Assembly (NCBI GenBank): GCA_937873275.1
Contig: CALMRC010000001.1
Coordinates: 1-48,794 of the forward strand
DNA length: 48,794 nucleotides
From: an uncultured Spirochaetota bacterium
Lineage (GTDB): Bacteria > Spirochaetota > Spirochaetia > Treponematales > UBA12059
Direction: 5' to 3'
This document shows, one piece after another, positions 13,236-40,976 of the stretch. Numbering within the stretch: the first letter of the stretch is position 1; the number at the start of each line of letters is the position of its first letter. The notes below the pieces were generated by a model. The model made no database searches. It saw nothing but the letters and a program-made list of their open reading frames with translations, and was not told the DNA's origin. The translations under genes were made by a program, and so were the position numbers.

Positions 13236-15010
13236 TGCGGGTGCGCGGATACTCGAGTCGGGCGATGAGGTTCCGGGCGGTCCTGGTCGCGGGGTTGCTT
13301 CTCACGAGCTCTGTCCCCCGCGGCTTCCCGGACGCGTTTTCAGCGCTGCCCGCAAAGGACGCCCAGAGGGCCCGCCTGCTTCTCGTCCGCCTGGATGCGT
13401 CCTTGGACGCCTGGATCGACCTTGAGCGCCGGCTGGCCGCCGAGGTCCAGGACGCCCGCGACCCCGATTCCGAAATCGAGGGCTCAAAGCGGGTGAAGAT
13501 CCTGCTGGAGGCGCGGCTCCGGGGCACCTGGACCCCGGGAGCCGGACCCACCCGGACCAAAGTCCGGGAGGAGACGCGAAGCCTGGCGGGACAGCTGGAA
13601 TCCATCCTGGCTCCCCGGCTCGATCGGCTGGACCCGGCCGCCCTGGCGGGGCTCATCGCGGAGTGGATGCCCCGGGCACGAAGGGTGCCTGGAGCCGTAC
13701 CCGAATACCTCTTGTTCGCGGAGCGGGCGGCCGCGGGCGGCCCTTCCGGGACCCGCTTCGCCCTCCGGGCCCTGCTGGCCCTGGATCCGGAATCCCTCTC
13801 CCTCCGACTGGCGCCGGAACCGGGCGATCCCGCGAAACCGGCTTCCGGCGTACCCCCGGAGCTCGAGGAGGAAGCCGGTCGGATCCGGCGGATTCGGACC
13901 GCGGTGGCCGCGCTGGAACGCTCGTCCCCGGCCCTGGGGGTTCCGGAGCTGCCCTGGTCGCGGGAGGAGGGCTCGGATGTCGAGCGGGCTGCCCGAGCTC
14001 TGTCCCTCGTGGAGCCATCTATCCGGGCAGGGATTCTGGAAGCTTCCGGGATCCCGGGTATCCAGGTCCTGCCGGCCTTCCTGGCGGGGCTTTCCCCGGA
14101 GGATCGGGGCGAATGGATCCGCACCCGGAACATTACCCAGGGGGCGGCGGAGGTCTTCCTCAGCTGCGTCCCCGGGGCGCTCGCATCCGCTCCCGGGGCG
14201 CCCTCCGGCGATGCCTCCTTGCCAGCGCTCGCAGCTTTGGGGGAGCTCGAGCGGGAGGTCGCCCGGGGTACGGCGGGTGTTTCCCTGCTCCGTTACCTCA
14301 CGGACCCGACCCTGAGGCTAGCCCTCCGATCGCCCCGGGCGGCTCCGAGCGTTCGGACCGCCCTGTCGGATGCCATGATCCGCCTTGCCGCGGACCTGGA
14401 GGCCGAGCTTGCGCGAACCGCGGCCGGGGCCGCGCATCGAGTCGAGATCGTGGAGATGCCGGGCGCTTCCGGATACTCCGCGGTCCGGGCATTCTCGGTA
14501 TCTCCGGACGGCGGTCGCGTTCCCGTGTCCCCGGACACGGTCCGTTCGGCCCTTGCAAGGGTCCTGCCCGGTTCCGCGGAGGGAACCGCGAGGACCGTTT
14601 CCGGACCGGACCTCGGGATCGTCGTGGAACCGGAGCGCACACTGGCCGGTGACTCCGCCTCGGGCGGCTCTGTCCCCGCGAGTCGGCTCCTGGAAATCCT
14701 GGATGCCCCCGGAGCTCTGTCCCCGGGGTCCTTCGCGGCCCGAACCGTGCTCGTCCAGGATCGGTTCCATCAATCGGCAAGAACCTGGGGCATTCCTCCG
14801 GCGTACGTGATGCCCGTGGAACTGTTCCGGCTGGCTAAGATTTGCCGGGAACGGTGCCTGGGGCTGGTCGGGGATTCGGAGGTGGATCGAAGCCTGGAAG
14901 ACCTCGGAGACGATCCTGTAGCCAGGCGGCTGTGGGAAACGGCGTTTTCCAGGCTGGAAGCGACACGGCTTTGCATTTCCACCTATCTCGGACAGGAGGC
15001 CATCCGATGA
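13235..15010 (+). CDS. Exported protein of unknown function
   Basis: ATG overlaps upstream stop (TGATG); signal peptide MRFRAVLVAGLLLTSSVPRGFPDAFS. Confidence 0.6.
   Translation: MRVRGYSSRAMRFRAVLVAGLLLTSSVPRGFPDAFSALPAKDAQRARLLLVRLDASLDAWIDLERRLAAEVQDARDPDSEIEGSKRVKILLEARLRGTWTPGAGPTRTKVREETRSLAGQLESILAPRLDRLDPAALAGLIAEWMPRARRVPGAVPEYLLFAERAAAGGPSGTRFALRALLALDPESLSLRLAPEPGDPAKPASGVPPELEEEAGRIRRIRTAVAALERSSPALGVPELPWSREEGSDVERAARALSLVEPSIRAGILEASGIPGIQVLPAFLAGLSPEDRGEWIRTRNITQGAAEVFLSCVPGALASAPGAPSGDASLPALAALGELEREVARGTAGVSLLRYLTDPTLRLALRSPRAAPSVRTALSDAMIRLAADLEAELARTAAGAAHRVEIVEMPGASGYSAVRAFSVSPDGGRVPVSPDTVRSALARVLPGSAEGTARTVSGPDLGIVVEPERTLAGDSASGGSVPASRLLEILDAPGALSPGSFAARTVLVQDRFHQSARTWGIPPAYVMPVELFRLAKICRERCLGLVGDSEVDRSLEDLGDDPVARRLWETAFSRLEATRLCISTYLGQEAIR
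13307..13317 (-). repeat. GGGACAGAGCT motif (reads SSVP)
   Basis: AGCTCTGTCCC exact. Confidence 0.85.
13996..14006 (-). repeat. GGGACAGAGCT motif (reads ALSL)
   Basis: exact. Confidence 0.9.
14667..14676 (-). repeat. GGGACAGAGC motif (10-mer core, reads GSVP)
   Basis: GCTCTGTCCC exact. Confidence 0.85.
14713..14723 (-). repeat. GGGACAGAGCT motif (reads ALSP)
   Basis: exact. Confidence 0.9.
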
Positions 15011-16608
15011 ACCTCTTGTCGAATGTCCCGAAGGTTTCCAGGGCCCTTCTTGGTATGGTTTTGGGGGCTTCCGTCCTCTTCGTCCAGTCCTGCGGGAGGG
15101 AGGGAAAAGCGCGGGGCTCCACGGATTCGGGTACGGCGCCGGCCGTCCTGCGTCCCCGGACCGCGGACGATTCCGGCTGGTTCGGGGTCTCCGGACCGGA
15201 GCGCTTGGACGGGTCCGAAGACCTGTTCCTGCCCTCCGGTGCCGGTATCCGGGATCTGCGGACAGCGGGGCGGGATCTCCTGGTACTGGACACGGCCGGG
15301 CGGCTGTACAAGGTTACGGAGGGGCCGGGGGCTCAGGACGTCCTGGCGGAGCCGGAACGGGGCGAGCGGATCTCCGCGATGGAATCGGGACCGGCCGGGT
15401 TGGTTCTCGCCGAAGAATCCGGAAGTGTCCGGGCGTATTTCCCGTCGACGGATTCCGGCCAAGGCAGAGGTCCGGGGGCGGAGTCCTGGTCCTCGACCCC
15501 GGGGTTCCGGTCCGACTGGGTTCTGGACGCGGAGGGAAGCTTCGTATGTGTCGCTTCGGATGGCCGGATCGCCGTGCTGTCCGCCTCGGACGGGGCCGTC
15601 CAGGCATTTCGCGACCTGGGATATCCGTTCACCGGGAAACCCGCCGTCGCGGGGGACGTCCTCGCGATTCCCCGGGACTCGGGTATCGTCGCCTTGGCGA
15701 TCCCGAGCCTGGAGTTTCTCTGGAGCGGGACCCGGATCCCCGCCGGTTCCGCTCCGTTCCGGACGGTTGATTCCCTCCTCGCATTCCAGGATCGGGACGG
15801 TCCCGTCCAGGTGGTGGAAGCCCGGAAGGGGACAGAGCTCTACAGCGTACCCGCGGAGAAGGACTCCTCCTTGGCCTGCGACGGCGACCGATGGTACGTC
15901 GCGGGACCGGACGGCCGTCTCGGCGCGTTCCGGGTCTCGGACGGGGTGCCGGTCTGGACGGCCGGCTCCGCAGGCGCCGATCCGAATAGAGAGCGGCCGC
16001 TGCTCCGGGCCCGGCTTGCGCTGGACGATTCCCGGCTGTACCTGGCGGGTGCCGAGGGGCTGGAGTCCTGGAATTCCGGGACGGGTGAACGGATCGAGAG
16101 GGTTCGGGTGGACGGCGAGGTGGACGGCCTTTATCTAACCCCGGGCCGGCTTCACATCCGGCTGCGCGACGGAAGCCTCCGGACGTACGGCGGGAAGTCG
16201 GAAGGGGGATCGTACCCGAACTTGGATGCCCTCATCCGGCCTATACCGGGAGTCGAGGAGAGAATCGCCCGGAGGCTCGAGGCCTACGCCGAGCCGGGTA
16301 CGCCGGTCGAGATCGCGTGGCGTACGTTAATTCCCGGGGCGGTCCCGTCGCCGGATTATCGTTTCACGATCTTCCGATACGAGGTCGGGGAGGCGGGAAC
16401 CCGATCGTTCTCCCAGAGGTCGGACGGAGCGGACCGTATCCTGGTCGCCGTGTTCGACGCCAACGGCGAGGAGCGTCACTCCAACGTCGGAGAGCTCGGG
16501 GTGGATCTCTCCTTCGAATACTGGCTGGAAGCGGGTATCTGGTACATAGCCGCAGGCCGGCTTCGAGGCAGCGAGCTGTCGGGCCCCGTGTTCCTGGATA
16601 TCCGTTGA
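15007..16608 (+). CDS. Lipoprotein with PQQ/WD-like beta-propeller repeats
   Basis: ATGA overlap with upstream stop; lipobox-like VLFVQSC; repeated propeller blades. Confidence 0.65.
   Translation: MNLLSNVPKVSRALLGMVLGASVLFVQSCGREGKARGSTDSGTAPAVLRPRTADDSGWFGVSGPERLDGSEDLFLPSGAGIRDLRTAGRDLLVLDTAGRLYKVTEGPGAQDVLAEPERGERISAMESGPAGLVLAEESGSVRAYFPSTDSGQGRGPGAESWSSTPGFRSDWVLDAEGSFVCVASDGRIAVLSASDGAVQAFRDLGYPFTGKPAVAGDVLAIPRDSGIVALAIPSLEFLWSGTRIPAGSAPFRTVDSLLAFQDRDGPVQVVEARKGTELYSVPAEKDSSLACDGDRWYVAGPDGRLGAFRVSDGVPVWTAGSAGADPNRERPLLRARLALDDSRLYLAGAEGLESWNSGTGERIERVRVDGEVDGLYLTPGRLHIRLRDGSLRTYGGKSEGGSYPNLDALIRPIPGVEERIARRLEAYAEPGTPVEIAWRTLIPGAVPSPDYRFTIFRYEVGEAGTRSFSQRSDGADRILVAVFDANGEERHSNVGELGVDLSFEYWLEAGIWYIAAGRLRGSELSGPVFLDIR
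15829..15839 (+). repeat. GGGACAGAGCT motif (reads GTEL)
   Basis: exact. Confidence 0.9.
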
Positions 16609-16634
16609 CCGGCCGGGAAAACGCCTCGGGTCGA

Positions 16635-16668
16635 GGGACAGAGCTGCGAGGATGTGAGGGACAGAGCT
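16635..16668 (+). repeat. Two tandem motif copies (16635-16645, 16658-16668), unit GAGGGACAGAGCTGCGRGG
   Basis: exact 11-mers, intergenic. Confidence 0.95.
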
Positions 16669-16749
16669 GCGGGGTGGAACCCCGGAGGTAGCTTTGATTG
16701 ACATTTCCATAACAAGTCGCGAGGCTTTCCTGGTATAGGGGGATACACG

Positions 16750-17265
16750 ATGCCGGAAACCAAGCTCAGCGTATTCGATTACGCGATCCGTTCGGAGGAG
16801 GAGGGTGCCGCCTTCTATGCCAAGGCGGCCCGAACGTTCGGGGAGGGCCCGGAGAAGGCATTCCTGGAAAACCTCGCGGCCGAGGAGACGAAGCACGCGG
16901 CAACCTTCCGGGAATTGAAGGAGAAAGCCTCCCGGAAGGGAACCGCTGAAATATTCGCGTCCGCGGAGGTCAGCGACTACCTGGACGCTGTGGTCCGGGG
17001 CGGCCTCTTCGAATCCGCCCGAGGGGCCGTACCGGACGGGGCTCCCCCGGAGAGCATCGAGGACGTCTACGCCGTCGCCATCCGGGCCGAGCGCAGTTCC
17101 ATCCTGCTGTACGGAGAATTGGCCCGGCAGGCCAAGGATAAACCGATCCGCAAGATCCTCGAGCAGATGGGGAGGGAGGAAAAGTACCACCTCGTTAGAA
17201 TCGTGGCCCTCCGGGCGGACCAGGATACGATGTTCGCTATCGAGCGGTTCGGCTGCGTGTGTTGA
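16750..17265 (+). CDS. Rubrerythrin-like ferritin-fold protein
   Basis: AIRSEEEGAAFYAKAAR...AAEETKHAATFRELKEK; IRAERSSILLYGELA. Confidence 0.8.
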   Translation: MPETKLSVFDYAIRSEEEGAAFYAKAARTFGEGPEKAFLENLAAEETKHAATFRELKEKASRKGTAEIFASAEVSDYLDAVVRGGLFESARGAVPDGAPPESIEDVYAVAIRAERSSILLYGELARQAKDKPIRKILEQMGREEKYHLVRIVALRADQDTMFAIERFGCVC

Positions 17266-17348
17266 GGCTCGATGGCGAGAAGGAAAATCCGGTAGAAGCC
17301 GCTTCGCGGGATGACCGGTGCCGTTCGGACGCCTAGTTCTCCGAGGAG

Positions 17349-17390
17349 GCTCTGTCCTTCTCGCATGGTTCATCGAGACAGCTCTGTCCC
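17349..17390 (-). repeat. Motif pair: degenerate GGCTCTGTCC (17349) and exact (17380-17390)
   Basis: intergenic, same orientation. Confidence 0.85.
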
Positions 17391-19433: not shown

Positions 19434-21755
19434 ATGAATTCCGATCCCGCCATCCGGGTGTTTGAACGAATTCTCGAGGATCCGGACATCAAGCCCTGTA
19501 TCGCCCGCGTGGAGAGACTTCCGGCCGCGGCCGGTTCCTACGCGTCGTTGCCTCCGGACCTCGATCCCCGCCTCGCCGAGGCCCTCTCGGCGAAGGGGAT
19601 CGACCGCCTGTATACCCATCAGCGGGCGTCCTGGGATCTGGCCCGGCGAGGGCGAAGCTTCGTCGTGGTGACCCCCACGGCCAGCGGAAAGACCCTCTGC
19701 TACAACCTCCCCGTGATCCAGACCTTGCTGGAGGACCCGACCGCCCGGGCGTTGTATCTGTTTCCGACCAAGGCCCTGTCCCAGGACCAGCAGTCCGAGC
19801 TGAACGAGGTGGCCCTAGGCGGGGACCTGCCCGTCAAGATCGCCACCTACGACGGGGATACCCCGTCTTCCGTCCGCATATCCGCCCGGGACACGGGGCG
19901 AATCGTCATCACGAACCCCGACATGCTCCACTCCGGGGTCCTTCCGAATCACGCCAAGTGGTCGCGATTCTTCTCGGGGCTCAAATACATCGTGGTGGAC
20001 GAGATGCACGGCTATCGGGGGGTCTTCGGAAGCCACGTTGCCAACGTGATCCGCAGGCTGAAGAGGATCGCCGCGTTTTACGGATCGAAACCGTCGTTCA
20101 TCCTGTGCTCCGCCACCATCGGAAATCCCCGGGAGTTGGCTGAATCCCTCGTCGAGGCGCCGGTGGAGGCGGTCACGGAAAACGGGGCCCCCCGGGCGGA
20201 GAAGCTCGTCGTACTGTACAATCCGCCCCTGGTGGATCCCGTGCAGGGGATCCGAAAAAGCACCGCCACGGAAACCCAGAGGCTCGCGGTAAAACTCCTG
20301 CGGTCGGGGATCAAGACCATCCTGTTCGCCCGCTCCCGGCTGCGGGTGGAGCTGATCGCCGGGTACATCAACCAGGAACTGCGGAACCTGTACACCGACA
20401 ACTCGGGAATCGTGGTGGAGCCGTACCGGTCGGGCCTCCTGCCCACGGAACGTCGGGCCATCGAGCGAGGACTCCGGGACGGAACCATCCACGGAGTCGT
20501 CTCCACCAACGCGTTGGAGCTCGGCATCGATATCGGGGGTCTGGATGCGGCCATCATCGCGGGATTTCCCGGCAGTTTCGCGAGTTTCTGGCAGCAGGCG
20601 GGCCGGGCCGGGCGCCGGAAGAGCCTTTCCGCGGCGTTCTTCGTGGCCTCCTCCAGCCCCCTGGACCAGTACATCATCGCACACCCGGAGTATTTCCTCG
20701 AAGTCCCGCCCGAATCGGGACGAGTGGACCCGGCCAATCCCTATATTTACGCGGATCATGTGAAGTGCGCGGCCTTCGAGTTGCCCTTCGCCGAGGGGGA
20801 ATCCTTCGGACCCGACGCCGGCGAGGTCCTCGGATTCCTGGCCGAGGACGGTATCGTCCGGAAGACCGGAGGACGGTGGTACTGGTCCTCCGGAGGCTAC
20901 CCGAGCGAAGCCGTCTCCCTCCGTTCCGCCGCGTCGGACAATGTCGTGATCGTCGACACGACGGAGGGCAGGAACAAGGTGATCGGGGAGATGGATCGTC
21001 CGAGCGCCAAGGAACTCATCTACGACGACGCCGTCTATATCCACCGCGGACGCCAGTACATCGTGCTCAAGCTGGACCTGGAGAACCGGCTGTGCAAGGT
21101 GGAGGAGCGGGAGGTCAACTACTATACGGATGCGGTCGTGAAGACGGATATCAAGGTCCTGTCGGAGGACATCCGAGGCGCCTCCGGGGGGGTGGAGTGG
21201 GCCCTTTCGGACATCCTGGTCCGCTCGGAGGCCGAAAAGTTCAAGAAGCTCCGATTCCACACCCATGAGAACGTCGGCTACGGGGACATACGCCTTCCGC
21301 CGGAGGAGATGCAGACACGAAGCCTGGCGTTGCTGTTCCCGGCCGCGGGTACCGCGGGGACAGAGCTCGCGGAGAGGGACGTCGCCTTCCGGGCGGCCAT
21401 CCTTTCGGGAACCTCCTATCTCTTCCGACGGATCGCCCCCGGCTTCCTGATGTGCGATCCGAGGGACGTAGGTACCGCGGAGAGGGTGCGGGACGATCAT
21501 TTCGGGGTTCCCGCCGTCTACCTGTACGACCAGTATCCGGGCGGGACAGGGCTCGCGGAAGCCCTGAAGGAGATCCTGCCGATCGTCGTGGAGGCCGCTC
21601 TCGACTGCGTCGAGCTCTGTCCCTGCCGAGGAGGATGTCCCTCGTGCATCGGCGTGGATTTCACCGACTCCAGGACCACCCTGGATGGATCCACCGTCAA
21701 GGCCGCCGTACAACGGTTCCTCGCCGCGATGCGGACCTCCGAGCATGCCCGGTGA
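19434..21755 (+). CDS. mrfA: MrfA/YprA-type DEAD-box helicase with C-terminal DUF1998 Cys cluster
   Basis: VVTPTASGKTLCYNLPV, VDEMHGYRG, QQAGRAGRR, CVELCPCRGGCPSCIG. Confidence 0.9.
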   Translation: MNSDPAIRVFERILEDPDIKPCIARVERLPAAAGSYASLPPDLDPRLAEALSAKGIDRLYTHQRASWDLARRGRSFVVVTPTASGKTLCYNLPVIQTLLEDPTARALYLFPTKALSQDQQSELNEVALGGDLPVKIATYDGDTPSSVRISARDTGRIVITNPDMLHSGVLPNHAKWSRFFSGLKYIVVDEMHGYRGVFGSHVANVIRRLKRIAAFYGSKPSFILCSATIGNPRELAESLVEAPVEAVTENGAPRAEKLVVLYNPPLVDPVQGIRKSTATETQRLAVKLLRSGIKTILFARSRLRVELIAGYINQELRNLYTDNSGIVVEPYRSGLLPTERRAIERGLRDGTIHGVVSTNALELGIDIGGLDAAIIAGFPGSFASFWQQAGRAGRRKSLSAAFFVASSSPLDQYIIAHPEYFLEVPPESGRVDPANPYIYADHVKCAAFELPFAEGESFGPDAGEVLGFLAEDGIVRKTGGRWYWSSGGYPSEAVSLRSAASDNVVIVDTTEGRNKVIGEMDRPSAKELIYDDAVYIHRGRQYIVLKLDLENRLCKVEEREVNYYTDAVVKTDIKVLSEDIRGASGGVEWALSDILVRSEAEKFKKLRFHTHENVGYGDIRLPPEEMQTRSLALLFPAAGTAGTELAERDVAFRAAILSGTSYLFRRIAPGFLMCDPRDVGTAERVRDDHFGVPAVYLYDQYPGGTGLAEALKEILPIVVEAALDCVELCPCRGGCPSCIGVDFTDSRTTLDGSTVKAAVQRFLAAMRTSEHAR
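21357..21367 (+). repeat. GGGACAGAGCT motif (GTEL) in mrfA
   Basis: exact. Confidence 0.9.
21613..21623 (-). repeat. GGGACAGAGCT motif (ELCP) in mrfA Cys cluster
   Basis: exact. Confidence 0.9.
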
Positions 21756-23010
21756 TCTCAAATCCAGGCTGAAGCGGGCCCGGGAGCTGACGCGGTCCCT
21801 TGGCCGGTTGCCCGGAGGGACAGAGCTCGATCCCGCGACTCGGGAATCCACGCCGATGCCTCCCGACAAGCCGAGGCCGTCGGGATTGCCCGGGTGGACA
21901 GGCATGGGGCCGTATCTCCTGTTTCGTCGGGTGCGCCGTCCCAACCCTCTACCCGAACACATCGATATGCGGCCGTACCTCCGGATGGACTCGCCCCCCG
22001 CGGTCGTCGACGGCAACGGTTCCGAAGCCGGGATAAATCGGGAGGAGATCAAGACGTCGTTTCCGTCGGACCGCCTCTTGTTCTTCGACCTGGAGACGAC
22101 GGGACTGTCCGGCGGGACCGGCACGATAGCCTTCCTTGCGGGTTTCGGCAATGTCGTTCAGGGAGCGGGGAACCGGGAGTTCGAGATCCGGCAATACCTG
22201 CTCACGGACTTTCCCGGGGAATGCGACTTCCTGGAGGCAGTCCTGGGGGAACTTCGGCGGGAGGTGGTACTCGCCACGTATAACGGCCGAACCTTCGACA
22301 TCCCCCTGCTGCGCACCCGATGCGTGTTGAACCGAAAAGCATGGCTTGACCGGGATCACGCGGATTTTCTGCCCGCGGCCCGGAGACTGTGGAGAGGGAA
22401 CTATGCGGATTGTTCCCTGGGAACCTTGGAGCGGGAGCTATTGGGACGAGTGCGAACCCTCGACATTCCCGGATCCCGTATACCCGAGATCTGGCTTGAG
22501 TACGCCCGAGCGGGGTTCCACGAGCTGATGCCCGCGGTACTGGAGCACAACGCCGAGGATCTGGAATCTCTGGGGGCCGTGGCGGCTCGATGCGCTGAAG
22601 TACATTCCGACCCGGTGAAAGCCCGGGACTGCGATCGGTCGTCCCTCGGGATCCTCTGGCTGAGGTTGAACCCGGAAACAGGACGCTCCATCCTGGAGCA
22701 GTCCTTCGCGGAGGGAGACGAGCGGGCGGGATGGATCCTGATCCGGCACTACCGGAGGCAGGGGGCGCTCGATGAATACCGCCGCATTTTGGAAGCTCTG
22801 TCCCCGTCCTGGGATTCCTGGATCGAACGATCGAAGGACGCGGAGCATCGGCGGAAACAACCCGAAGCCGCTCTGGCGGCCGCCCGGGCAGCGGAACCCT
22901 TCGCAGGGAGTGCGGCGCTCCGGTGCGAACTGGAACGCCGTCTCCGCCGCCTCGAACGGAAGTCAGCCGCTAGATGGCCTCGGGAAGGTCGTAAAGGCCC
23001 CCGGCGTTGA
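21745..23010 (+). CDS. mrfB: MrfB/YprB-type DEDDh (RNase H-like) exonuclease
   Basis: LFFDLETTGLSGGTGTIAFLAGFG, TYNGRTFDIPLLRTR, LEHNAEDLESL; overlaps mrfA stop. Confidence 0.87.
   Translation: MPGDLKSRLKRARELTRSLGRLPGGTELDPATRESTPMPPDKPRPSGLPGWTGMGPYLLFRRVRRPNPLPEHIDMRPYLRMDSPPAVVDGNGSEAGINREEIKTSFPSDRLLFFDLETTGLSGGTGTIAFLAGFGNVVQGAGNREFEIRQYLLTDFPGECDFLEAVLGELRREVVLATYNGRTFDIPLLRTRCVLNRKAWLDRDHADFLPAARRLWRGNYADCSLGTLERELLGRVRTLDIPGSRIPEIWLEYARAGFHELMPAVLEHNAEDLESLGAVAARCAEVHSDPVKARDCDRSSLGILWLRLNPETGRSILEQSFAEGDERAGWILIRHYRRQGALDEYRRILEALSPSWDSWIERSKDAEHRRKQPEAALAAARAAEPFAGSAALRCELERRLRRLERKSAARWPREGRKGPRR
21817..21827 (+). repeat. GGGACAGAGCT motif (GTEL) in mrfB
   Basis: exact. Confidence 0.9.
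22794..22804 (-). repeat. GGGACAGAGCT motif (ALSP) in mrfB
   Basis: exact. Confidence 0.9.
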
Positions 23011-23245
23011 GGACATCCGCGTATCCCGAAGCTTTCAGAATGCGAGCGGCATAGGCGCTACGGGCTCCGCTTGCGCAGTAGACGATGATACTCCGGTCCT
23101 TCGGAATCTCCGTGAGGCGGGACGGGAGTTCGTTGACGGGGATGCAGACGGAATCCGGGTAATGCTCCTCGTCATACTCCTCCAGGGTTCGAACGTCGAG
23201 GATGAAGGCTCCGGACTTGATCTTTTCCTGAACTAGGTTGGCCAT
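22970..23245 (-). CDS. Stand-alone rhodanese domain protein
   Basis: FILDVRTLEEYDEEHYPDSVCIPVNEL...IIVYCASGARSAYAARIL, active-site Cys present. Confidence 0.9.
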   Translation of the reverse strand: MANLVQEKIKSGAFILDVRTLEEYDEEHYPDSVCIPVNELPSRLTEIPKDRSIIVYCASGARSAYAARILKASGYADVLNAGGLYDLPEAI

Positions 23246-23279
23246 TGTAGTCTCCTTGATCGAGGTTTCAGGGTTCCGG

Positions 23280-24953: not shown

Positions 24954-24990
24954 CTGCACCCTCACTTTGTTGCCTATAATATATATAAAA

Positions 24991-25009
24991 CAATATATAG
25001 TCAATATTG
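24991..25009. promoter_or_regulatory. Candidate operator CAATAT-N7-ATATTG in AT-rich divergent promoter region
   Basis: Inverted repeat inside the AT-rich 24965-25020 stretch. Confidence 0.4.
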
Positions 25010-25070
25010 ATTTCCAATGTATTCGAGTCCGTATTAGGATGTAGGCTAGTACGATACGGAAGGAAGGCGT

Positions 25071-27196: not shown

Positions 27197-27250
27197 GGGA
27201 CAGAGCCAACACACACGGATGGAAATGAACCCCTTTTGAGGGACGGAGCT
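27197..27250 (+). repeat. Two degenerate motif copies (AGGGACAGAGCC 27196-27207; AGGGACGGAGCT 27239-27250) upstream of the transposase
   Basis: one mismatch each to RGGGACAGAGCT, same orientation. Confidence 0.8.
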
Positions 27251-27301: not shown

Positions 27302-27850
27302 ATGAGAAAGCCACGGTTACTACGGGAAGGTTCCCTGTACCATGTTTCCGCGCGGGCGAATCGCAAGGAATTCATCCTGAACGAAAATGACATGAAGGCA
27401 CTGTTTCTCCGGGTACTTCACCGCGCGCGCAATCGCTATCGTTTCAGGATTGTAAATTTCTGCATCATGGGCAATCATTTCCATCTTCTCATTCGTCCCG
27501 GGCCACGGGAGTCGCTGTCCCGGATCATGCAGTGGATCATGAGCGTGTTCGCGATGGCCTACAACCGAGCCCATGGCATTTCCGGGCATGTTTGGGGTGA
27601 GCGGTTCTTCTCCAAGATTATGGATGGATTCCGCGAATTCCTGGAGACGTTTCGCTATATCGACCGAAACCCGGTGGACGCCGGACTGGTGGGCAATGCA
27701 TGGGAGTGGGAGCATGGCGGGCTATGGTGGGATCGGATGGGCTATCCGATCGACGGTATCCGACCATCCCCTGCGAGCCTTCTCTGGTCACCCGGACACG
27801 CGACGCTCTGCATCCCCGCCGAGTCTCCGGAGATCGCATTTGTGACTTGA
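27302..27850 (+). mobile_element. Y1 (HUH) REP-associated-type tyrosine transposase (ORF open from 27236)
   Basis: RKPRLLREGSLYHVSARAN, HUH motif CIMGNHFHLLIRP, Tyr region FRYIDRNPVDAGLV. Confidence 0.92.
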
Positions 27851-27852
27851 AA

Positions 27853-27870
27853 ACTATACAAATGTATAGT
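27853..27870. promoter_or_regulatory. Candidate operator ACTATAC-AAAT-GTATAGT
   Basis: Perfect 7+4+7 inverted repeat ending 12 bp before the DUF72 ATG. Confidence 0.6.
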
Positions 27871-27881
27871 ATATCATAGGA

Positions 27882-29914: not shown

Positions 29915-29921
29915 AAAGCCT

Positions 29922-32900
29922 GTGTTTACGCCACTGCTGGTTTCATCCTGCTATTCGCTACAGTATGGGACAAGATTCCCCCGCGACTTGGTTCATGCGG
30001 CGCGGAGGCTGGGATATGGAGCTCTGGCATTGACGGATCGCAATGGCGTATACGGGGTTCCGGCGTTCTTGGAAGCGTGCTCGGAGGGCGATCGGCTGGG
30101 GGATGGGCTAAAGGGGACAGAGCATGCAAATACGGGATGCAACTTATCCGGTATGAGCACGGAAACTGGGGACCCGGGGACAGAGCTGGGTAATTGCAGG
30201 CCAATCCTGGGGACAGAGCTTGTAGACGGGCACGCCCGGGTGCTCCTGATCGCCCGGACGCGAGCCGGATGGTCCAGGATATGCCGAATCCTGACGAGCC
30301 GTGCTTCGGGCACCCTTGATCTGCCCGCGGCGATCCTAAAGGAACTTGAGCTCTGTCCCTGCATTCTAGGCAAGGGGCGCCCCCCGGATCTCTTCGTCGC
30401 CACCGACGACCTGAGTCTTCTTGAAGCAGCCTGCGGAAGAGCCTATGCCCTGCTCGTTCCATCCTCCACCGGGCGAGACGGCGTGGGCCGACGCGCCCTA
30501 TGGAGGGCCTTGGCCCGTACAGGCGCTCCTCCCCTGGCGACGGGGGAGGTCCGCTTCCTGGACGGATCGGATCGCGACGTACAGCGGCTCCTTATCGCGA
30601 TCGGGAGCGGGAGGACGAAATTCGAGATTCCCCAGGAGGAACTGTCGGCATCCGGGACGATTCTGTGCGCTCCCGGCGAGGCGTGCCGCCCCTATGAAAG
30701 TATTCCGGAGTCCCTGATCGCCAATGCCGCCGTGGCGGAGTCGATCGAGTTACGATCCGTCTTTGACGGGTTCGTCTTTCCATCGTACGAAACCGCCGAC
30801 GGGGACAGAGCTGCGGAAGTGTTGCGATCTTGTACCTACCAGGGCGCCGTGAAGCGGTACGGGAGTCTGGATGGCATCGTTCGATCCCGGCTGGAGTACG
30901 AGCTGGGGATCATCGAGGCCAAGGGCTTCTCCGATTATTTCCTGATCGTTCGGGATATCGTTCGAAAGGCCTCCAGGACCTGCGGACGCGGAAGCGCGGC
31001 CGCGAGCGTGGTTTCTTACGCCCTGGGCATCACGGATGTCGACCCCATTGCCCAGGACTTGTATTTCGAGCGCTTCCTGAACCCCGGCCGCCGGGATCCT
31101 CCCGATATCGATGTGGATTTTGCCTGGGACGAGCGGGATATGGTCCTGGATGCCGTGATCCGGGAGTACGGCGAGGATCGCGCGGCCCGGGTCGCGAACC
31201 ATGTCTGTTTCCAGGCCCGGTCGGCCCTCCGAGAGACTGCCCGGGCTTTCGGTTTGCCGGACGGTGAGATCGGAGCCATGGAGCGGGCGCTCTATCTCGA
31301 CCGAAACCGGGCCTTGTCCGAGGCGGATCCTGTCTGGAAGGAGGTGCTGGAACTGGCTCCCCGGATCGAAGGGATCCCCCGGCATTTGGGGGTCCATTCC
31401 GGCGGCCTCGTGCTCGTTCCCGGCCGCTTGACGGATCATGTCCCGATCGTGCCCAGCGGATCGGGAATCCGGGTGACGGCCTGGGACAAGGAAGGCGTGG
31501 AGTCGGCCGGGATGGTCAAGATAGACCTTCTCGGCAATCGAAGCCTGGCGGTAGTCCGGGACGTCCTGGCGAACCTGGAGGAGAACGGAACGCCGATTGT
31601 GGAGCGGGACTGGGAGCCGATTTCGGATCCGGATACCATCAACCTCCTGGCTCGCGGCGACACGATGGGGGTGTTCTATGTGGAGAGCCCCGCCATGCGT
31701 CTCCTGCAAAAGAAGACCGGCCGAGGCGATTTCGAGCACCTGGTTATCCATTCGTCCATCATTCGGCCCGCGGCCAACCGGTATATCAACGAGTACATCG
31801 ACCGCCTCAACGGCAAGCCCTACAAACCCTTGCATCCCCTGCTGGACGGCCAGTTGTCTGAAACCTACGGCATCCTCTGCTACCAGGAAGACGTGAGCAA
31901 GGCGGCGGTCGCGCTCGCGGGGTTCACCCCGGCCGAAGCGGACGGTATTCGAAAGGTCCTGTCCAAGAAGGATGTCCGGACACGGCTTTCGGCCTACCGG
32001 GGACAATTCGAGTCGGGCGCCCGGGCCCGAGGCGTGGACGACGCCACGATCTCCACGGTGTGGCACATGATCGAATCCTTCGCGGGATACTCCTTCGTGA
32101 AGGCGCACTCCGCAAGTTACGCCAAGCTTTCGTTCCGCTCCGCCTTTCTTCGAGCCCACCACGGGGCCGAGTTCATGGCCGCCGTGATGTCCAACCGGGG
32201 AGGCTACTACTCGACCCTGGCCTATGCCAGCGAGGCACGGCGCATGGGCCTGAGCCTCCTGCCTCCGGACGTCAACGAGAGCGAGATGCGATGCCGCGGG
32301 CGGGAAGGCGTGATCCGATTCGGCCTGGGCATGGTTTCGACCCTGGGATCCGGGACGGCCGCGGCCATCGTGGAGGAACGGAAGCGCACCGGACCCTTTT
32401 TGAGCGTCGAGGATCTCGGCCGCCGCGTTCGGATCGACCGAAGCGACGCCGAGGCCCTGGCCGGCTCGGGCGCCTTGGATGCTCTCGATGAGGGACAGAG
32501 CTGCTCGAGCAAGCTTCTGCGCCTGTTCTCCATCGTTGCCGCCCGGGAGGAGGCGACTGTTTTCGGGGGTGATCTATTCGCTGAAGCCGAGCTCGGAACG
32601 GCCGTACGGGGGACAGAGCTTCGATATGCAGATCTCCCCGGAGCCCCGTCCGGGCGCAGGCGGCTCGAACAACAGATGAGATATCTGGGCACCACACTCG
32701 AGGATCATCCCCTCCGGCTATTTCCACGGGCCCTGCGGCAGCCCCGGACACTCGGCCGGGACCTCATGGACAGCATCGGCCGCCGAGTCGAACTGTTAGG
32801 CTGGCCCATCACGGCCAAGCCGGTCCTCACCTCCGAGGACGAGCCCATGGAATTCGTCTCCTTCGAGGATGAGACGGCCTTGTACGAAGCCGTACTCTTT

Positions 32901-33044
32901 CCGGACGTGTATCGCCGGTATCGTGCCTTGCTTTGCGGAAACACGCCTCTCTTCGTCCGTGGTCGGGTCGAGGAGGATCGCGGAGCCGTGGTGCTTTCCG
33001 TGGAGAGCCTCGCGACTATAGAATGCTCTGTCCCCGGAGAATGA
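29922..33044 (+). CDS. dnaE2: DnaE2/ImuC-like error-prone DNA polymerase III alpha subunit
   Basis: PHP-like N-terminus; palm motif RRDPPDIDVDFAWDERD; HLGVHSGGLVLVPG; SFVKAHSASYAKLSFRSAFLRAHHGAEFMAAVMSN. Confidence 0.93.
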   Translation: MFTPLLVSSCYSLQYGTRFPRDLVHAARRLGYGALALTDRNGVYGVPAFLEACSEGDRLGDGLKGTEHANTGCNLSGMSTETGDPGTELGNCRPILGTELVDGHARVLLIARTRAGWSRICRILTSRASGTLDLPAAILKELELCPCILGKGRPPDLFVATDDLSLLEAACGRAYALLVPSSTGRDGVGRRALWRALARTGAPPLATGEVRFLDGSDRDVQRLLIAIGSGRTKFEIPQEELSASGTILCAPGEACRPYESIPESLIANAAVAESIELRSVFDGFVFPSYETADGDRAAEVLRSCTYQGAVKRYGSLDGIVRSRLEYELGIIEAKGFSDYFLIVRDIVRKASRTCGRGSAAASVVSYALGITDVDPIAQDLYFERFLNPGRRDPPDIDVDFAWDERDMVLDAVIREYGEDRAARVANHVCFQARSALRETARAFGLPDGEIGAMERALYLDRNRALSEADPVWKEVLELAPRIEGIPRHLGVHSGGLVLVPGRLTDHVPIVPSGSGIRVTAWDKEGVESAGMVKIDLLGNRSLAVVRDVLANLEENGTPIVERDWEPISDPDTINLLARGDTMGVFYVESPAMRLLQKKTGRGDFEHLVIHSSIIRPAANRYINEYIDRLNGKPYKPLHPLLDGQLSETYGILCYQEDVSKAAVALAGFTPAEADGIRKVLSKKDVRTRLSAYRGQFESGARARGVDDATISTVWHMIESFAGYSFVKAHSASYAKLSFRSAFLRAHHGAEFMAAVMSNRGGYYSTLAYASEARRMGLSLLPPDVNESEMRCRGREGVIRFGLGMVSTLGSGTAAAIVEERKRTGPFLSVEDLGRRVRIDRSDAEALAGSGALDALDEGQSCSSKLLRLFSIVAAREEATVFGGDLFAEAELGTAVRGTELRYADLPGAPSGRRRLEQQMRYLGTTLEDHPLRLFPRALRQPRTLGRDLMDSIGRRVELLGWPITAKPVLTSEDEPMEFVSFEDETALYEAVLFPDVYRRYRALLCGNTPLFVRGRVEEDRGAVVLSVESLATIECSVPGE
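30114..30220 (+). repeat. Three motif copies (30114-30123, 30177-30187, 30210-30220) in dnaE2 PHP region
   Basis: same orientation, same GTE frame. Confidence 0.95.
30349..30359 (-). repeat. GGGACAGAGCT motif (ELCP) in dnaE2
   Basis: exact. Confidence 0.9.
30802..30812 (+). repeat. GGGACAGAGCT motif (GDRA, AGA codon) in dnaE2
   Basis: exact. Confidence 0.9.
32492..32502 (+). repeat. GGGACAGAGCT motif (GQSC) in dnaE2
   Basis: exact. Confidence 0.9.
32610..32620 (+). repeat. GGGACAGAGCT motif (GTEL) in dnaE2
   Basis: exact. Confidence 0.9.
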
Positions 33045-33136
33045 TTTGAGCTGGGCGGTCTCTGGGGTCGAGGATCGAGCTCTGTCCCCGGAGGGCGATT
33101 TGGGTGCCCTGCTCCTGGATGAACCAGCTCTGTCCC
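33025..33136 (-). repeat. Three motif copies (33025-33034, 33078-33088, 33126-33136) at dnaE2 3' end/intergenic
   Basis: all same orientation; first two share an extended downstream match. Confidence 0.95.
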
Positions 33137-35707: not shown

Positions 35708-35754
35708 CGTGGTCGCTCCTTGGTTCCGATTCGGGGTCCGGACGTTTCGAGCCG

Positions 35755-35764
35755 GCTCTGTCCC
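35755..35764 (-). repeat. GGGACAGAGC motif, intergenic
   Basis: GCTCTGTCCC exact. Confidence 0.85.
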
Positions 35765-35766
35765 TT

Positions 35767-35787
35767 GTACTATACGCTTGCTAGTAC
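35767..35787. promoter_or_regulatory. Inverted repeat GTACTA-N9-TAGTAC
   Basis: Arms 35767-35772 and 35782-35787. Confidence 0.4.
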
Positions 35788-35791
35788 CTGG

Positions 35792-35803
35792 ATACCATGG
35801 TAT
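35792..35803. promoter_or_regulatory. Perfect 12-bp palindrome ATACCATGGTAT
   Basis: Self-complementary. Confidence 0.45.
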
Positions 35804-35808
35804 TCTAA

Positions 35809-35823
35809 ACTGGTAGGACCAGT
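35809..35823. promoter_or_regulatory. FadR/GntR-type operator ACTGGTAGGACCAGT abutting the regulator ATG
   Basis: Perfect 6+3+6 inverted repeat close to the known FadR TGGTNNGACCA-type site. Confidence 0.7.
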
Positions 35824-36567
35824 ATGCGCAACAAGTTGGATTCGGCCACGAAACGGTTGGAGCGGGAAATCCTGGAAGGGCGGTTCCGGCCCGGCGACCG
35901 TCTGCCCTCGGAGCGAGCTCTGTCCCTCCGATACGGCGTGAGCCGTTCCATCCTCCGGGAGGGCATCCGACACCTCGCGAGCCTGGGACTTGTCCGAACG
36001 GAAGCCCAGAGCGGCACCTATGTCACTGATTACCGCAAGGAAGCGTCCTTGGAGTTTCTGCTCTACCTCCTGGACAACAACGAGCCCTTGGACCCGGAGA
36101 TTTTCCGGGCGGTCAACGAGCTCCGGGAGATCCTGGAACCGGGATGTGCAGTCCGTGCCGCGGTACGATCCACGCCGGAGCGAGTCCGGGCGCTCCGGGA
36201 GTCCCTGGCCGCCCTGCGATCGGCGGAGGGCAGTCCCGAGGACCTGGCTGCGCGGGATTACGAGTTCCACGCTCTCATGGTCGAGCAGACGGACAATCTC
36301 GCCCTTCGGCTCCTGTTCCATGCCTGCCGGTCGGTCTACCTGTTCTACGTCCGACAATTCTACAAGGACCCCGCGAACGCCGCTCCCACCTTCGATCAGC
36401 TCGAAAGGTTCATTGATCGGGTCGAGGCGAAAGACGAAACCGGGGCGGCCGCGGCTCTGTCCCTCGCGCTCATGTACGGACGGGATCGGGTATATCGATC
36501 CCTCGATTGGCCGTTCCCAGACAAGGGCCGTGCGGTCGAGACGGTCCCGGATGGAGGTTCTCCATGA
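35824..36567 (+). CDS. GntR-family (FadR/FCD-type) transcriptional regulator
   Basis: RLPSERALSLRYGVSRSILREGIRHLASLGLV wHTH; C-terminal FCD-like helices. Confidence 0.92.
   Translation: MRNKLDSATKRLEREILEGRFRPGDRLPSERALSLRYGVSRSILREGIRHLASLGLVRTEAQSGTYVTDYRKEASLEFLLYLLDNNEPLDPEIFRAVNELREILEPGCAVRAAVRSTPERVRALRESLAALRSAEGSPEDLAARDYEFHALMVEQTDNLALRLLFHACRSVYLFYVRQFYKDPANAAPTFDQLERFIDRVEAKDETGAAAALSLALMYGRDRVYRSLDWPFPDKGRAVETVPDGGSP
35916..35926 (-). repeat. GGGACAGAGCT motif (ALSL) in GntR wHTH
   Basis: exact. Confidence 0.9.
36454..36463 (-). repeat. GGGACAGAGC motif (ALSL) in GntR
   Basis: exact 10-mer. Confidence 0.85.
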
Positions 36568-39065
36568 AAAGCACCGATTCCTCGGTTTCCATCAAGCAGC
36601 CTTCCGGCCTTTCCCCCCGTATACGGTGGCTCCGGGATTACTATTTTCGCGGCGTCTCCCGTGCATGGAGTAACCAGCAGATCAGCTTTACGACCGGGAC
36701 TCCTTGGGACGTCCAGTACAACGAATGCAACTACCACATCGTCCCGGAGACCTACGCGTTCTTCCAGACCTTCACGAGCTCCTACCGCCAGATCGCCCGC
36801 CCGGTTCGTCTCGCATCGGATTTCTGGAATCTCAGCCTCCCGGAGCGCCGGGCGTGGTTCAACAAGGAGGTGATGACCGAGTACCTGCCGCAGGAAATCC
36901 TTCCGGGGGACCTGATCGCCGGCGGTCGATTCAACGTCCATACCTCCCTGTGCCTCACGGAGTCGGAGAATCGGGCGCGATCGGCCGAATTGTACGGCCG
37001 GAAGGGTCTTCGCCGGGGTGCGATCGAGTTCCACAACCACGGATTCGGGAATGCCGGTCCGACGGCCGGGCATCTCATTCCGGATTATTCCCGGGTTCTC
37101 TCCGAGGGATTCGAGGGGATCCGGTCCGACCTGGAAGAGTATCATACAGCTCTGTCCCCGGCGGAGCGTGACGGTCCGCCGGGTGCCCAGCTACGGGCGA
37201 TGATCGTCGCCTGCGGGATGCCGATCGACCTCGCCCGCCGGTACCGGGACGAGGTCCTCCGGCTCTCAGCGGGGGAGGGCGATCCGGGAAGGGCGGCGGA
37301 GCTCCGGCGGATGGCCGCCAACCTCGAGCGGGTTCCGTCGAAGGGTGCCCGAGACTTCTGGGAGGCCCTCCAATCCCTGTGGCTGGCCCACATGCTGGTC
37401 ATGAGCGACGAGAACTATCCGGGGCCCGGCGTATCCTTCGGCCGGCTGGATCAACTGCTCCTGCCGTACTGGGAAACGTCGGTCCGGGAAGGGATGGACC
37501 GGGAGTTCGCCAAGGAGATCCTGAAGTGCTTCTGGATCCATGCGAATACCGCCTACGACTCCATGATCCGGGTAGGGAACCAGGGAATCACGGCCGGGTT
37601 CGGCCAGTTGTTCAACCTCTCGGGGCTGGGACCGGAGGGCCGGGACAGTACGAACGACCTCACCTTCCTCATCCTGGAGGTGATCGACGAGATGTCCCCG
37701 ATCCTCGAGCCCAAGCCCAATATCCGTCTCCATCGCGGCAGTCCCGAAGCCCTCCTGGACAAGATTGTGGACATGATCTCCACCAGCCAGGGTGCGCCCT
37801 TCCTCCTCAATTTCGACGAACGGTCCATAGCGGGAATGATGCGGCAGGCCCGGATGTCCGACGCCGGGGACCGGATCCACCCCGGAAACGTCCACGAGTA
37901 CGCCTCCGTGGGATGCCTGGAGAACACGATGGTCGGAAACGACCGCTCCGGCACGGTGGACTGCAACCTGAACCTCCTCAAGGCCGTCGAGCTGACCCTG
38001 GGAAACGGATTTCCCCTCGTTCCCCACACGGATACGATCACCGGAATCACGGAACGGCCCCGACGGCAGGGCCCCTCCACCGGGGATCCCCGGGGATTCC
38101 GGGACTTCGGCCGGTTCTGGGCCGCCTACGCGGAGCAGACCCGCGCCCTCGTCCGGAGGATCGTGGACCTGTACGAACGGGGCGAGGCTCTCCGGGCCCG
38201 GTTCCACCCGACCCCCTACCTGTCCACCCTCGTCCGGGGCTGCGCCGCGAATGGCCGGGACGTCACCCAGGGCGGGGCGGAGCTTGGATATGTCACGGTC
38301 GAGGGGGTCACCTTCGCGACCACCGTGGACTCCCTGCTCGCGGTGAAATACCTCGTGTACGACAACTCGTTTTGTACTATAGAGGAGCTCATCCGGGCCC
38401 TGAAGGACAACTGGAAGGGACACGAGATCCTGCAGGCCCGGGCCCGGAACAAGGCCCCGAAGTACGGCCGCGACGATCCCGAGGCGGACGCCTTGGCGCG
38501 GAGCGTCATGGATCTCTGGGCGGAGGAAACCTGGAAGTACCGCACGGAATGCACCGGGCGCCGCTTCCGGCCCGGCATGCTCTCCTGGAACTACTGGATC
38601 GGGGACGGATTCATCCTCCCCGCGTCCCCGGACGGGCGCCCGAAGGATCAGTTCCTCTCCAACGCGATCTGTCCCTCCAACGGAGCGGACATCCGGGGTC
38701 CCACGGCCAACTCGAACTCCGTAGGCACGGTCCTGGGCGGCCGGGGTGACGGGGGTGACTGGAAGGATTACTTCAATTCCCTGCCCAACGGGGCCAGCCA
38801 CACCATCAGCTTCAACCCTTCCCTGATCCGCCGGCCCGAGAACCGGGCCAAGTTCAAGAGCTTCCTGCGGGGATACGCCGAGAACGGGGGAACGGCCCTC
38901 CAGGTGAACGTACTGGATCCCGAAGTGCTCCGGGACGCGCAACGCAATCCCTCGGAGTACCGCCATCTCCTGGTCCGGGTGACGGGGTACAACGCCTACT
39001 TCACATCCATCGGCCGGGAACTCCAGGACGAGGTGATCGCGAGGATCGCCCATGAACAGCTCTGA
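36564..39065 (+). CDS. Glycyl radical enzyme (PFL-like) of unassigned function
   Basis: Glycyl-radical box RVTGYNAYFTSIGRELQDEVIARIAHEQL; thiyl-Cys region EYASVGCLENT. Confidence 0.92.
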   Translation: MKSTDSSVSIKQPSGLSPRIRWLRDYYFRGVSRAWSNQQISFTTGTPWDVQYNECNYHIVPETYAFFQTFTSSYRQIARPVRLASDFWNLSLPERRAWFNKEVMTEYLPQEILPGDLIAGGRFNVHTSLCLTESENRARSAELYGRKGLRRGAIEFHNHGFGNAGPTAGHLIPDYSRVLSEGFEGIRSDLEEYHTALSPAERDGPPGAQLRAMIVACGMPIDLARRYRDEVLRLSAGEGDPGRAAELRRMAANLERVPSKGARDFWEALQSLWLAHMLVMSDENYPGPGVSFGRLDQLLLPYWETSVREGMDREFAKEILKCFWIHANTAYDSMIRVGNQGITAGFGQLFNLSGLGPEGRDSTNDLTFLILEVIDEMSPILEPKPNIRLHRGSPEALLDKIVDMISTSQGAPFLLNFDERSIAGMMRQARMSDAGDRIHPGNVHEYASVGCLENTMVGNDRSGTVDCNLNLLKAVELTLGNGFPLVPHTDTITGITERPRRQGPSTGDPRGFRDFGRFWAAYAEQTRALVRRIVDLYERGEALRARFHPTPYLSTLVRGCAANGRDVTQGGAELGYVTVEGVTFATTVDSLLAVKYLVYDNSFCTIEELIRALKDNWKGHEILQARARNKAPKYGRDDPEADALARSVMDLWAEETWKYRTECTGRRFRPGMLSWNYWIGDGFILPASPDGRPKDQFLSNAICPSNGADIRGPTANSNSVGTVLGGRGDGGDWKDYFNSLPNGASHTISFNPSLIRRPENRAKFKSFLRGYAENGGTALQVNVLDPEVLRDAQRNPSEYRHLLVRVTGYNAYFTSIGRELQDEVIARIAHEQL
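37148..37158 (-). repeat. GGGACAGAGCT motif (ALSP) in GRE
   Basis: exact. Confidence 0.9.
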
Positions 39066-40062
39066 TACGGGGCTGGTCCTTGAAATCCAGAGAATGAGCA
39101 CCGAGGACGGGCCGGGGCTCCGGAGCACCCTCTTCCTGAAGGGATGTTCCCTTCGCTGCCGTTGGTGCCACAATCCGGAGAGCATCTCGCCGGAACCCCA
39201 GCTCCGCTGGTCCGAGTCCCGCTGCCTGGGCTGCGGGGAATGCCTTGCGGCCTGCCCGAGACGAGCTCTGTCCCTCGGGGTCGGCATCCGGATCGATCGC
39301 GGAGCCTGCGACGGCTGCGGGAATTGCGAGCGGACCTGCCCCGGGGGAGCGCTGGAGATCTGGGGAAGGCGCAGGACTGCCGGGGCCGTCGTCGGGGAGC
39401 TTCTGCGGGACCGGTCGTATTTCGGGACCGAGGGAGGGGTGACCGTTTCGGGCGGGGAAGCCTGCCTCCAGGCGGACTTCGCCCGGAACGTCCTGGAGCG
39501 GCTCAAGCGGGAAGGTGTCGGGACGGCCCTGGACACCTGCGGGATGTGCACGGAATCCCAGCTGCTACTAGCCGCCGAACACGCGGATCTCGTCCTGTAC
39601 GACATCAAGGACAGCGACCCCGTTCGGCACCGGACGAACACGGGAGGCGATCTGGATATCGTGCTTCGGAACCTCCGGCTGCTTTCGATCCCGCGCGGGG
39701 ACAGAGCTCGAAAGCGCATCTGGGTCCGGACCCCCGTCATCCCCGCCCTGACCGATTCGCCGAGCATGATCGAGGGCATCGCCCGATTCCTTTCGGATAG
39801 CGCCGGCGACGCGGTGGAGCGCTGGGAATTGTGCGCCTTCAACAATCTATGCCGCGAGAAATACCGCCAGTTGGGCGGGGAGTGGGAGCTGGCGGAGTCC
39901 CCGCTCATGCGGGCCGAGGACCTGGACCGGCTGGTGGACGCCGCGGTCCGGACGGGCTGGCCCCCGGATCGTATTCGATGGACGGGTATGGCGGCGTCCG
40001 GCGCGGCGGCCCGGGACGTTTCGATTTCATCGCCGACGCGGGGAACGAAAACGCAGATCTAG
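39052..40062 (+). CDS. Glycyl radical enzyme activase (radical SAM, two 4Fe-4S ferredoxin motifs)
   Basis: LKGCSLRCRWCHNPES; CLGCGECLAACPRRAL; CDGCGNCERTCPGGALE; overlaps the GRE stop. Confidence 0.95.
   Translation: MNSSDTGLVLEIQRMSTEDGPGLRSTLFLKGCSLRCRWCHNPESISPEPQLRWSESRCLGCGECLAACPRRALSLGVGIRIDRGACDGCGNCERTCPGGALEIWGRRRTAGAVVGELLRDRSYFGTEGGVTVSGGEACLQADFARNVLERLKREGVGTALDTCGMCTESQLLLAAEHADLVLYDIKDSDPVRHRTNTGGDLDIVLRNLRLLSIPRGDRARKRIWVRTPVIPALTDSPSMIEGIARFLSDSAGDAVERWELCAFNNLCREKYRQLGGEWELAESPLMRAEDLDRLVDAAVRTGWPPDRIRWTGMAASGAAARDVSISSPTRGTKTQI
39264..39274 (-). repeat. GGGACAGAGCT motif (ALSL) in GRE activase
   Basis: exact. Confidence 0.9.
39698..39708 (+). repeat. GGGACAGAGCT motif (GDRA) in GRE activase
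   Basis: exact. Confidence 0.9.
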
Positions 40063-40076
40063 GACGAGGAGGCCCC

Positions 40077-40976
40077 ATGGGTGCGCGACCGGAGCGGATA
40101 GTGGACCAGTTCGAGCGGGAGGACCTCAAATTCTTCGAGCCCGACGGAAAGGTCGGGCTTCTCGCGACCTTGGATCCCGAGGGCCTGCCCCATGTCACCC
40201 TCCTGACCGCGATGCAGGCGAAGGACGAGCGGCACCTGGTCTTCGGCCAGTTCTGCGAGGGCCGGGGCAAGCGGTTCGCGGAGGATCGCAAAAAGACCGG
40301 ATTCCTCCTGATGACCCTGGATCGTCGGCTCTGGCGGGGAACGGCCCTCTGGACCGGCAAGGCCCAGAGCGGACCGGAGCACGAGATCCTGAACCGCAAG
40401 CCCATGTGGCGCTACAACTCCTACTTCGGGATCCATACGGTCCATTACCTGGATCTCGTCTCCGTGACCCCCGGGGAGGACCTCCCGATGGCAGCGGTCA
40501 TCCGGGGCGTCGTCTCCGCATCGATCGCGCGAAGGTTCGGAAGAAACCGTGCCCCGGGGACAGAGCTCGGGGGAGGCGCCGACCCGGGCCGAGGGACAGA
40601 GCTCGGGGTCGGACCCTTGAACCCCTGGACTCGGGCCTTCATAAGCCGGACGGGAAACCTGAAGTTCGCCGCCTACGTTGGCGGGGACGGTTTTCCCCGC
40701 ATCGTGCCCCAGTTTGCCGCGTCCTGCCTGGACGACCGGCGCGTTTTGCTACCGGGCGCGGAGTACCCGGAGGATCTGGCCCGCATTCCCCGGGGGGCTG
40801 CCGTGGCCCTGTTCACCCTGTCCCTGGACATGGAGGACGTCCTGGTCCGGGGACGGTGGGAGCCAGGTCGCCGAGGCGGGGTGATCCTTGTGGATTGGGT
40901 GTACAACTCCATGCCTCCCGTGGCGGAGCAGATCTATCCTCCCGTGGACCTCGCCCGGAAGATCGAGGCCTTCTGA
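40077..40976 (+). CDS. Pyridoxamine 5'-phosphate oxidase-like (split-barrel flavin) family protein
   Basis: FFEPDGKVGLLATLDPEGLPHVTLLTAMQAKDERHLVFGQFCEG; second barrel-like half after 40610. Confidence 0.65.
   Translation: MGARPERIVDQFEREDLKFFEPDGKVGLLATLDPEGLPHVTLLTAMQAKDERHLVFGQFCEGRGKRFAEDRKKTGFLLMTLDRRLWRGTALWTGKAQSGPEHEILNRKPMWRYNSYFGIHTVHYLDLVSVTPGEDLPMAAVIRGVVSASIARRFGRNRAPGTELGGGADPGRGTELGVGPLNPWTRAFISRTGNLKFAAYVGGDGFPRIVPQFAASCLDDRRVLLPGAEYPEDLARIPRGAAVALFTLSLDMEDVLVRGRWEPGRRGGVILVDWVYNSMPPVAEQIYPPVDLARKIEAF
40557..40603 (+). repeat. Two motif copies (40557-40567, 40593-40603), both GTEL, in flavoprotein inter-domain linker
   Basis: exact, same orientation. Confidence 0.95.

Follow-up and report, generated by a model that had tools for sequence, protein, structure and literature searches.

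The question raised by this locus is why one short word, GGGACAGAGC, should recur 36 times in a stretch of 48,794 bp (hereafter the window). Dinucleotide shuffles of the window yield a mean of 0.18 exact copies (maximum 2) and a third-order Markov null a mean of 0.20 (maximum 2), in agreement with the expectation of well under one copy given in a preliminary description of this DNA. The other counts of that description also held on recounting: 30 of the 36 copies are followed by a T, all 36 are preceded by a purine, and each strand carries 18 of them. A logo built from 509 copies at 40 loci gives the consensus (G/A)GGGACAGAGC(T, sometimes A/C, hardly ever G), and the flanks of the word are not conserved; in this pool the word reads RGGGACAGAGCT, the GGGGACAG form accounting for about 65% of copies and AGGGACAG for the remainder. 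Neither GTAG nor any hairpin-forming self-complementarity was found in the word among the 509 copies. It is also rigid, as single-mismatch versions are not in excess in the window (seven copies versus 4.7 expected). Strand-balanced and largely intragenic, it fits no standard feature class, as was originally proposed.

Most copies lie within the span first reported (13307-40603), although two fall outside it, at 6837..6846 (minus strand) and 46651..46660 (plus strand), both being conserved in a congener. The left arm of the cluster (13307..17390) carries words at 13308, 13997, 14667, 14714 and 17381 on the minus strand and at 15829, 16635 and 16658 on the plus strand; those at 13308, 13997 and 15829 are intact in the congener. 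A second group (21357..25221; plus strand: 21357, 21817, 24686 and 25212; minus strand: 21614 and 22795) is located in MrfA-like helicase, RNaseH_2 exonuclease, redox and amylase genes, and every alignable word in it is intact in the congener except that at 25212. The imuB-dnaE2 cassette and the next gene (29194..33136) contain words at 30114, 30177, 30210, 30802, 32492 and 32610 on the plus strand and at 29195, 30350, 33025, 33079 and 33127 on the minus strand, the DnaE2 gene alone holding at least seven. The right arm (35754..40603) has minus-strand words at 35755, 35917, 36454, 37149 and 39265, and plus-strand words at 39698, 40557 and 40593. The words were described at the outset as lying mostly inside genes, and 31 of the 36 do fall in conservation-supported reading frames, on either strand and in differing frames. 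Genes are nevertheless not preferred, because 95% of the 13-41 kb region is coding; in the scant intergenic space of the cluster, words are if anything about three-fold enriched. Word pairs within 80 nt of each other are mainly in the same orientation (102, versus 20 in opposite orientations), direct-repeat pairs being spaced by 20-50 nt. Tandem word arrays with 13-21-nt spacing occur at G010:C1 21611-21813 and 102555-102803, and at L033 10272-10428.

The 13-41 kb cluster has at its centre a gene (27302..27847, plus strand) for a 182-aa RAYT, or TnpA_REP-like Y1 (HUH) transposase. The protein matches PF01797 (E 5.2e-15), scores 79.1 bits against NCBIfam REP_Tyr_transpos (cut-off 80), and gives a profile match to PDB 4ER8, the E. 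coli TnpA_REP (E 1e-8). Its catalytic motifs, the HUH histidines H59-x-H61 and Y119-xxx-N123-P124, are invariant in A1, and this combination of HuH and Y-xxx-NP is that of the Y1 HUH fold (class 2 of Quentin 2018). In sense orientation on the plus strand, one copy of GGGACAGAGC is located ~105 nt upstream of the RAYT start (27197..27206) and a variant word, GGGACGGAGC, ~62 nt upstream (27240..27249), which is the usual anchor position. Between the word and the gene, RAYT upstream regions (e.g. window 27206-27302 and L115-L194) share two recurrent features, possibly the RAYT promoter: a TAT-rich stretch beside the ATG and, ~25-45 nt ahead of the start codon, a conserved AAGC(A) box. To our knowledge, the function of RAYTs, although these enzymes are widespread, has no settled answer. 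Within 19434-33041, the gene adjoins DUF72, imuB-like and dnaE2-like genes, and genes for an MrfA-like helicase and an MrfB-like exonuclease lie upstream of it. A shared repair-gene neighbourhood was considered as the cause of the cluster and rejected, as this neighbourhood is absent from the other RAYT loci; among the genes next to the window RAYT, only the amylase and an aldo/keto reductase are found at other RAYT loci, in a few of them.

The enrichment extends beyond the window. With pattern counts set against reversed-pattern controls as the genome-wide null, the genome holds 120 copies of the 10-mer versus one of the reversed pattern. These copies are clustered: 30% lie in this 49-kb contig, which makes up 1.4% of the assembly, and eight contig stretches without clusters contain none. 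Further clusters, in this genome and in relatives, likewise contain a RAYT, among them those of G000 (C7, C70 and C130), G034 (788 kb) and G051 (C241). On a 649-kb contig (G001:C1), words reach 0.75 per kb within 5 kb of the RAYT, 0.50 at 5-10 kb, 0.23 at 10-20 kb, 0.11 at 20-40 kb and 0.06 at 40-80 kb, a roughly tenfold drop from the first interval to the last, followed by none at 80-200 kb and 0.008 beyond 200 kb. When RAYT loci are pooled, the halo is symmetric and strand-balanced relative to the RAYT genes. The 200 nt upstream of RAYT genes contain 83 words (6/kb; 73 sense, 10 antisense) and the 200 nt downstream six (0.44/kb), and the RAYT coding regions of 69 pooled loci contain none, versus ~25 expected at the local density. 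At most of the more than 100 Spirochaetota RAYT loci, a word closely precedes the start codon, and it is usually the word enriched in the surrounding 20 kb. Word clusters in free-living spirochaete genomes centre on RAYT genes.

The same word occurs in relatives from the family and the order, with high counts patchily distributed; all relatives that could be identified are consistent with the spirochaete assignment of the window. Among 59 genomes, 20 have both at least 12 words and a Y1 gene, four the words only, 13 a Y1 gene only and 22 neither (Fisher p = 0.0005). Some of the genomes that depart from this co-occurrence have other words or Y1 genes of other subfamilies. Three genomes (G009, G042 and G057) have many Y1 genes without GGGACAGAGC, and four (G002, G014, G020 and G023) have at least 12 words with no RAYT detected; G002 was set aside, its short and broken contigs being uninformative on RAYT absence. 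Most of the genomes compared are MAGs, and all loci examined belong to Spirochaetota. In the closed G034 chromosome, the words are regionally clustered. Secondary clusters are present there (G034:C1 508-512, 682-698 and 964-976 kb), 100-300 kb from the RAYT, with no recognisable RAYT remnant near them.

RAYT loci have their own words. In 20-kb stretches around the RAYTs of relatives, the top word is often not GGGACAGAGC but GGGACAGACC, GGGACGGAGG, GGGACGGACC, GGGACAGACA or GGGACACTC, and at some it is a palindrome such as GGTGACTGTCACC. The word nearest to position -70 from the start codon is the most abundant surrounding word at 51 of the 62 readable loci, versus a mean of 25.5 and a maximum of 39 in permutations; at the remaining 11 loci, the two differ by at least one letter. 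Word labels cluster on the RAYT tree, yet the word has changed several times. The pattern recurs in a second set of loci drawn from the class, mostly with RAYTs new to the analysis: a word precedes the RAYT at almost every locus, and of the 13 new loci with a strongly enriched, scored 9-mer, nine carry this 9-mer upstream of the RAYT. A single example of co-switching was observed: at a homologous site (L114:2216 and L110:3199), the word is GGGACAGAGC near a GGGACAGAGC RAYT and GGGACAGACC near a GGGACAGACC RAYT. Among cultured relatives, Breznakiella homolactica RmG30 (locus L157) possesses the system, with words GGGACAGAGT/C. Other RAYT relatives (L096 in G009:C82, and L091 and L092 in G034) sit amid palindromic or unrelated words (GTGCCAGGTTTC, GGTGCCAGGCACC, GGTGACTGTCACC), with ~40-56 copies of GTGCCAGGTTTC in 20 kb. 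A genome may contain several words, each around its own RAYT. These patterns bear on the possibility of a segregation or recombination site independent of the RAYT (KOPS, Chi, matS or parS-like), with which the regional clustering in the closed G034 chromosome is compatible. Such a site is hardly credible here, as the words show no strand bias around RAYTs, unlike Chi or KOPS, form clusters around several RAYTs of a genome, amid different neighbouring genes, and change along with the RAYT.

How the words arise and persist can be followed between species, as the window is syntenic with a congener contig (G001:C8) over nearly its full length. Of its words, 27 are alignable with the congener and nine are not. 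Intact copies amount to 25 of these 27, versus 1.9 expected from controls matched for local identity. Identity reaches 93-100% over the 12 motif columns and ~65-70% on either side, and third codon positions inside words are identical in 82 of 87 cases (94%), versus 60% (0.601) elsewhere in the same genes. Just 5' of the window words (-20 to -3), identity is ~0.62, versus ~0.75 at -30 to -21; both loops and a locally raised mutation rate are possible explanations. At a second large locus, 18 of 21 words are intact (4.6 expected), and in another genus six of seven copies of the word GGGACAGACC (0.8 expected). In the two largest clusters, the words keep nearly all their letters from one species to another and thus look like maintained recognition sites rather than debris. 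The excess is modest at the C73 locus (7/11 intact versus 3.8 expected), and small clusters show little of it (C70, 1/4 intact; C130, 1/2). At G000:C73, a RAYT remnant of the first ~46 codons (25988-26125; L012 5988-6125) stands amid 16 words, and the RAYT is complete at the syntenic G001 locus; this loss led to no conclusion, as a comparable relaxation is seen in small clusters whose RAYT is intact.

Given that the enzyme belongs to the RAYT family, the words might be REP/TIR-like mobile repeats, the RAYT copying a short element by local insertion and the copies being parasitic or relics. The GGGGACAG form fits the GGGGWSAS motif given for the TIRs flanking TIRYT genes in PMC3733652, and there are tandem arrays and a few indel-type differences between species, including a 30-nt stretch with a word that is missing from C3. 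Indel-type differences are, however, mostly confined to intergenic arrays or poorly aligned stretches. Coding words present in one species only mostly lie in gap-free alignments, with 1-6 substitutions inside the word, and insertion was rejected on this ground as the main origin of coding words. Copies in large clusters are moreover conserved far beyond neutral expectation, and the near-absence of excess among one-mismatch copies leaves hardly any decayed relics, so that mobile repeats are an unlikely explanation. Words arise mainly by substitution and are conserved at the nucleotide level in the larger clusters.

This evolutionary behaviour recalls DNA uptake sequences, to which the window's word had been likened. 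The DUS of Neisseria and the USS of Pasteurellaceae are ~10-nt words that lie on both strands and inside genes, arise by substitution and are conserved; they are spread genome-wide, with one dialect per genome, and are recognised by the uptake machinery. The likeness stands as far as a short, intragenic, conserved word found on both strands and mainly born by substitution is concerned, and a ComEC-family gene is present. It fails for an uptake signal serving natural transformation. The spirochaete words are local, decay with distance from the RAYT, are absent from the eight control contig stretches, lie within tens of kb of RAYT genes, and differ among the RAYTs of a single genome. The ComEC-family competence gene is as frequent in word-poor relatives as in word-rich ones. 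On this distribution and the absence of a ComEC association, the uptake reading was rejected, and we regard it as very improbable.

Two further known systems are close. Di Nocera et al. (2013; PMC3733652) describe TIRtrons, or TIRYTs, as RAYT-like genes flanked by inverted repeats that share GGGGWSAS; the TIRs fall into several separate families, some of them of moderate genomic abundance. Like TIRtrons so outlined, the spirochaete system combines a RAYT-like Y1 transposase gene with a short GGGGWSAS motif; as GGGGACAG fits this motif, the family of enzyme and motif is known in outline. Relative to the same outline, the spirochaete word differs in being a bare 10-12-mer, usually on the sense strand upstream of the gene, and in forming a distance-dependent halo of mainly substitution-born words, conserved at the nucleotide level, in neighbouring genes. 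Inverted repeats on both sides of the transposase gene are not observed, words being concentrated upstream (6/kb, mostly sense) rather than downstream (0.44/kb). REPtrons, which associate REPs or REPINs with a RAYT (Nunvar 2010, PMC2817692; Bertels and Rainey 2011, PMC3116915; Quentin 2018, PMC6006769), share with our system a RAYT family enzyme, a RAYT-specific repeat and repeats next to the RAYT gene; Quentin et al. (PMC6006769) found no REP-like sequences for RAYT subclasses 2.1 and 2.3. REPs are 20-40 nt long, palindromic, GTAG/GTGG-tagged, mostly extragenic, spread over the genome and inserted as units. The spirochaete word is unlike them: as derived from 509 copies it is no palindrome with a GTAG/GTGG foot, most window words (31/36) are in reading frames, and coding words present in one species only mostly reflect gap-free substitutions, with some indels, largely in arrays or poorly aligned stretches. 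REPINs, i.e. inverted REP pairs forming a hairpin, are not matched either, as close word pairs are mainly direct (102 versus 20). In the open-access literature, we found no account of conserved words forming an intragenic halo around a RAYT; a search on the word itself mainly brought up eukaryotic and clinical papers on other subjects.

We consider, with a probability of roughly 0.6, that RGGGACAGAGCT is the cognate recognition word of the linked RAYT at 27302-27847, gained by point mutation and retained near the RAYT. Because one-species coding words usually differ by equal-length substitutions, and because words are conserved, we infer from these comparisons of sequences that the words are conserved recognition words tied to the RAYT in cis, rather than inserted REP/TIR repeats. 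The RAYT would bind, and perhaps nick or join, DNA at the words, preferentially near its own gene. Cis preference is established for bacterial transposases, and the locality of the halo could mean that the enzyme acts in cis or that only words linked to the RAYT matter. Near an active RAYT, point mutations would create words, which would then be kept in one of two ways: by a cis-limited molecular drive, for instance favoured transfer or recombination of fragments carrying word and RAYT, or because the RAYT has a local host function that is under selection.

The host-function alternative supposes that a domesticated RAYT binds nearby words and organises or repairs the chromosome locally, host selection keeping the words. 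RAYT loci are syntenic between two species, the words are under strong constraint, direct-repeat pairs at 20-50 nt could be cooperative sites, and the window RAYT adjoins imuB-dnaE2 and mrfAB-like repair genes. These repair genes are, however, absent at other RAYT loci, and the patchiness of RAYT and words across the order disfavours a general housekeeping role; a host benefit is conceivable, though we would not bet on it. With three species compared, we only slightly favour drive or linkage over host function as the reason for retention. Under cis-limited drive, the gene of a single-stranded DNA endonuclease would make its neighbourhood gain and keep a private 12-nt word by point mutation, DNA carrying word and enzyme being favoured in transfer or recombination. 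We put this forward tentatively; if true, it would be a local, gene-linked counterpart of uptake sequences.

For the RAYT family, the halos suggest a local action of the enzyme, and RAYTs paired with matched words inside ordinary genes, naturally varied and often several per genome, provide directly testable enzyme-substrate pairs. For the spirochaetes, the words represent a nucleotide-level constraint on coding sequence that is unrelated to the encoded proteins, and RAYT-linked words would explain puzzling over-represented k-mers in their genomes.
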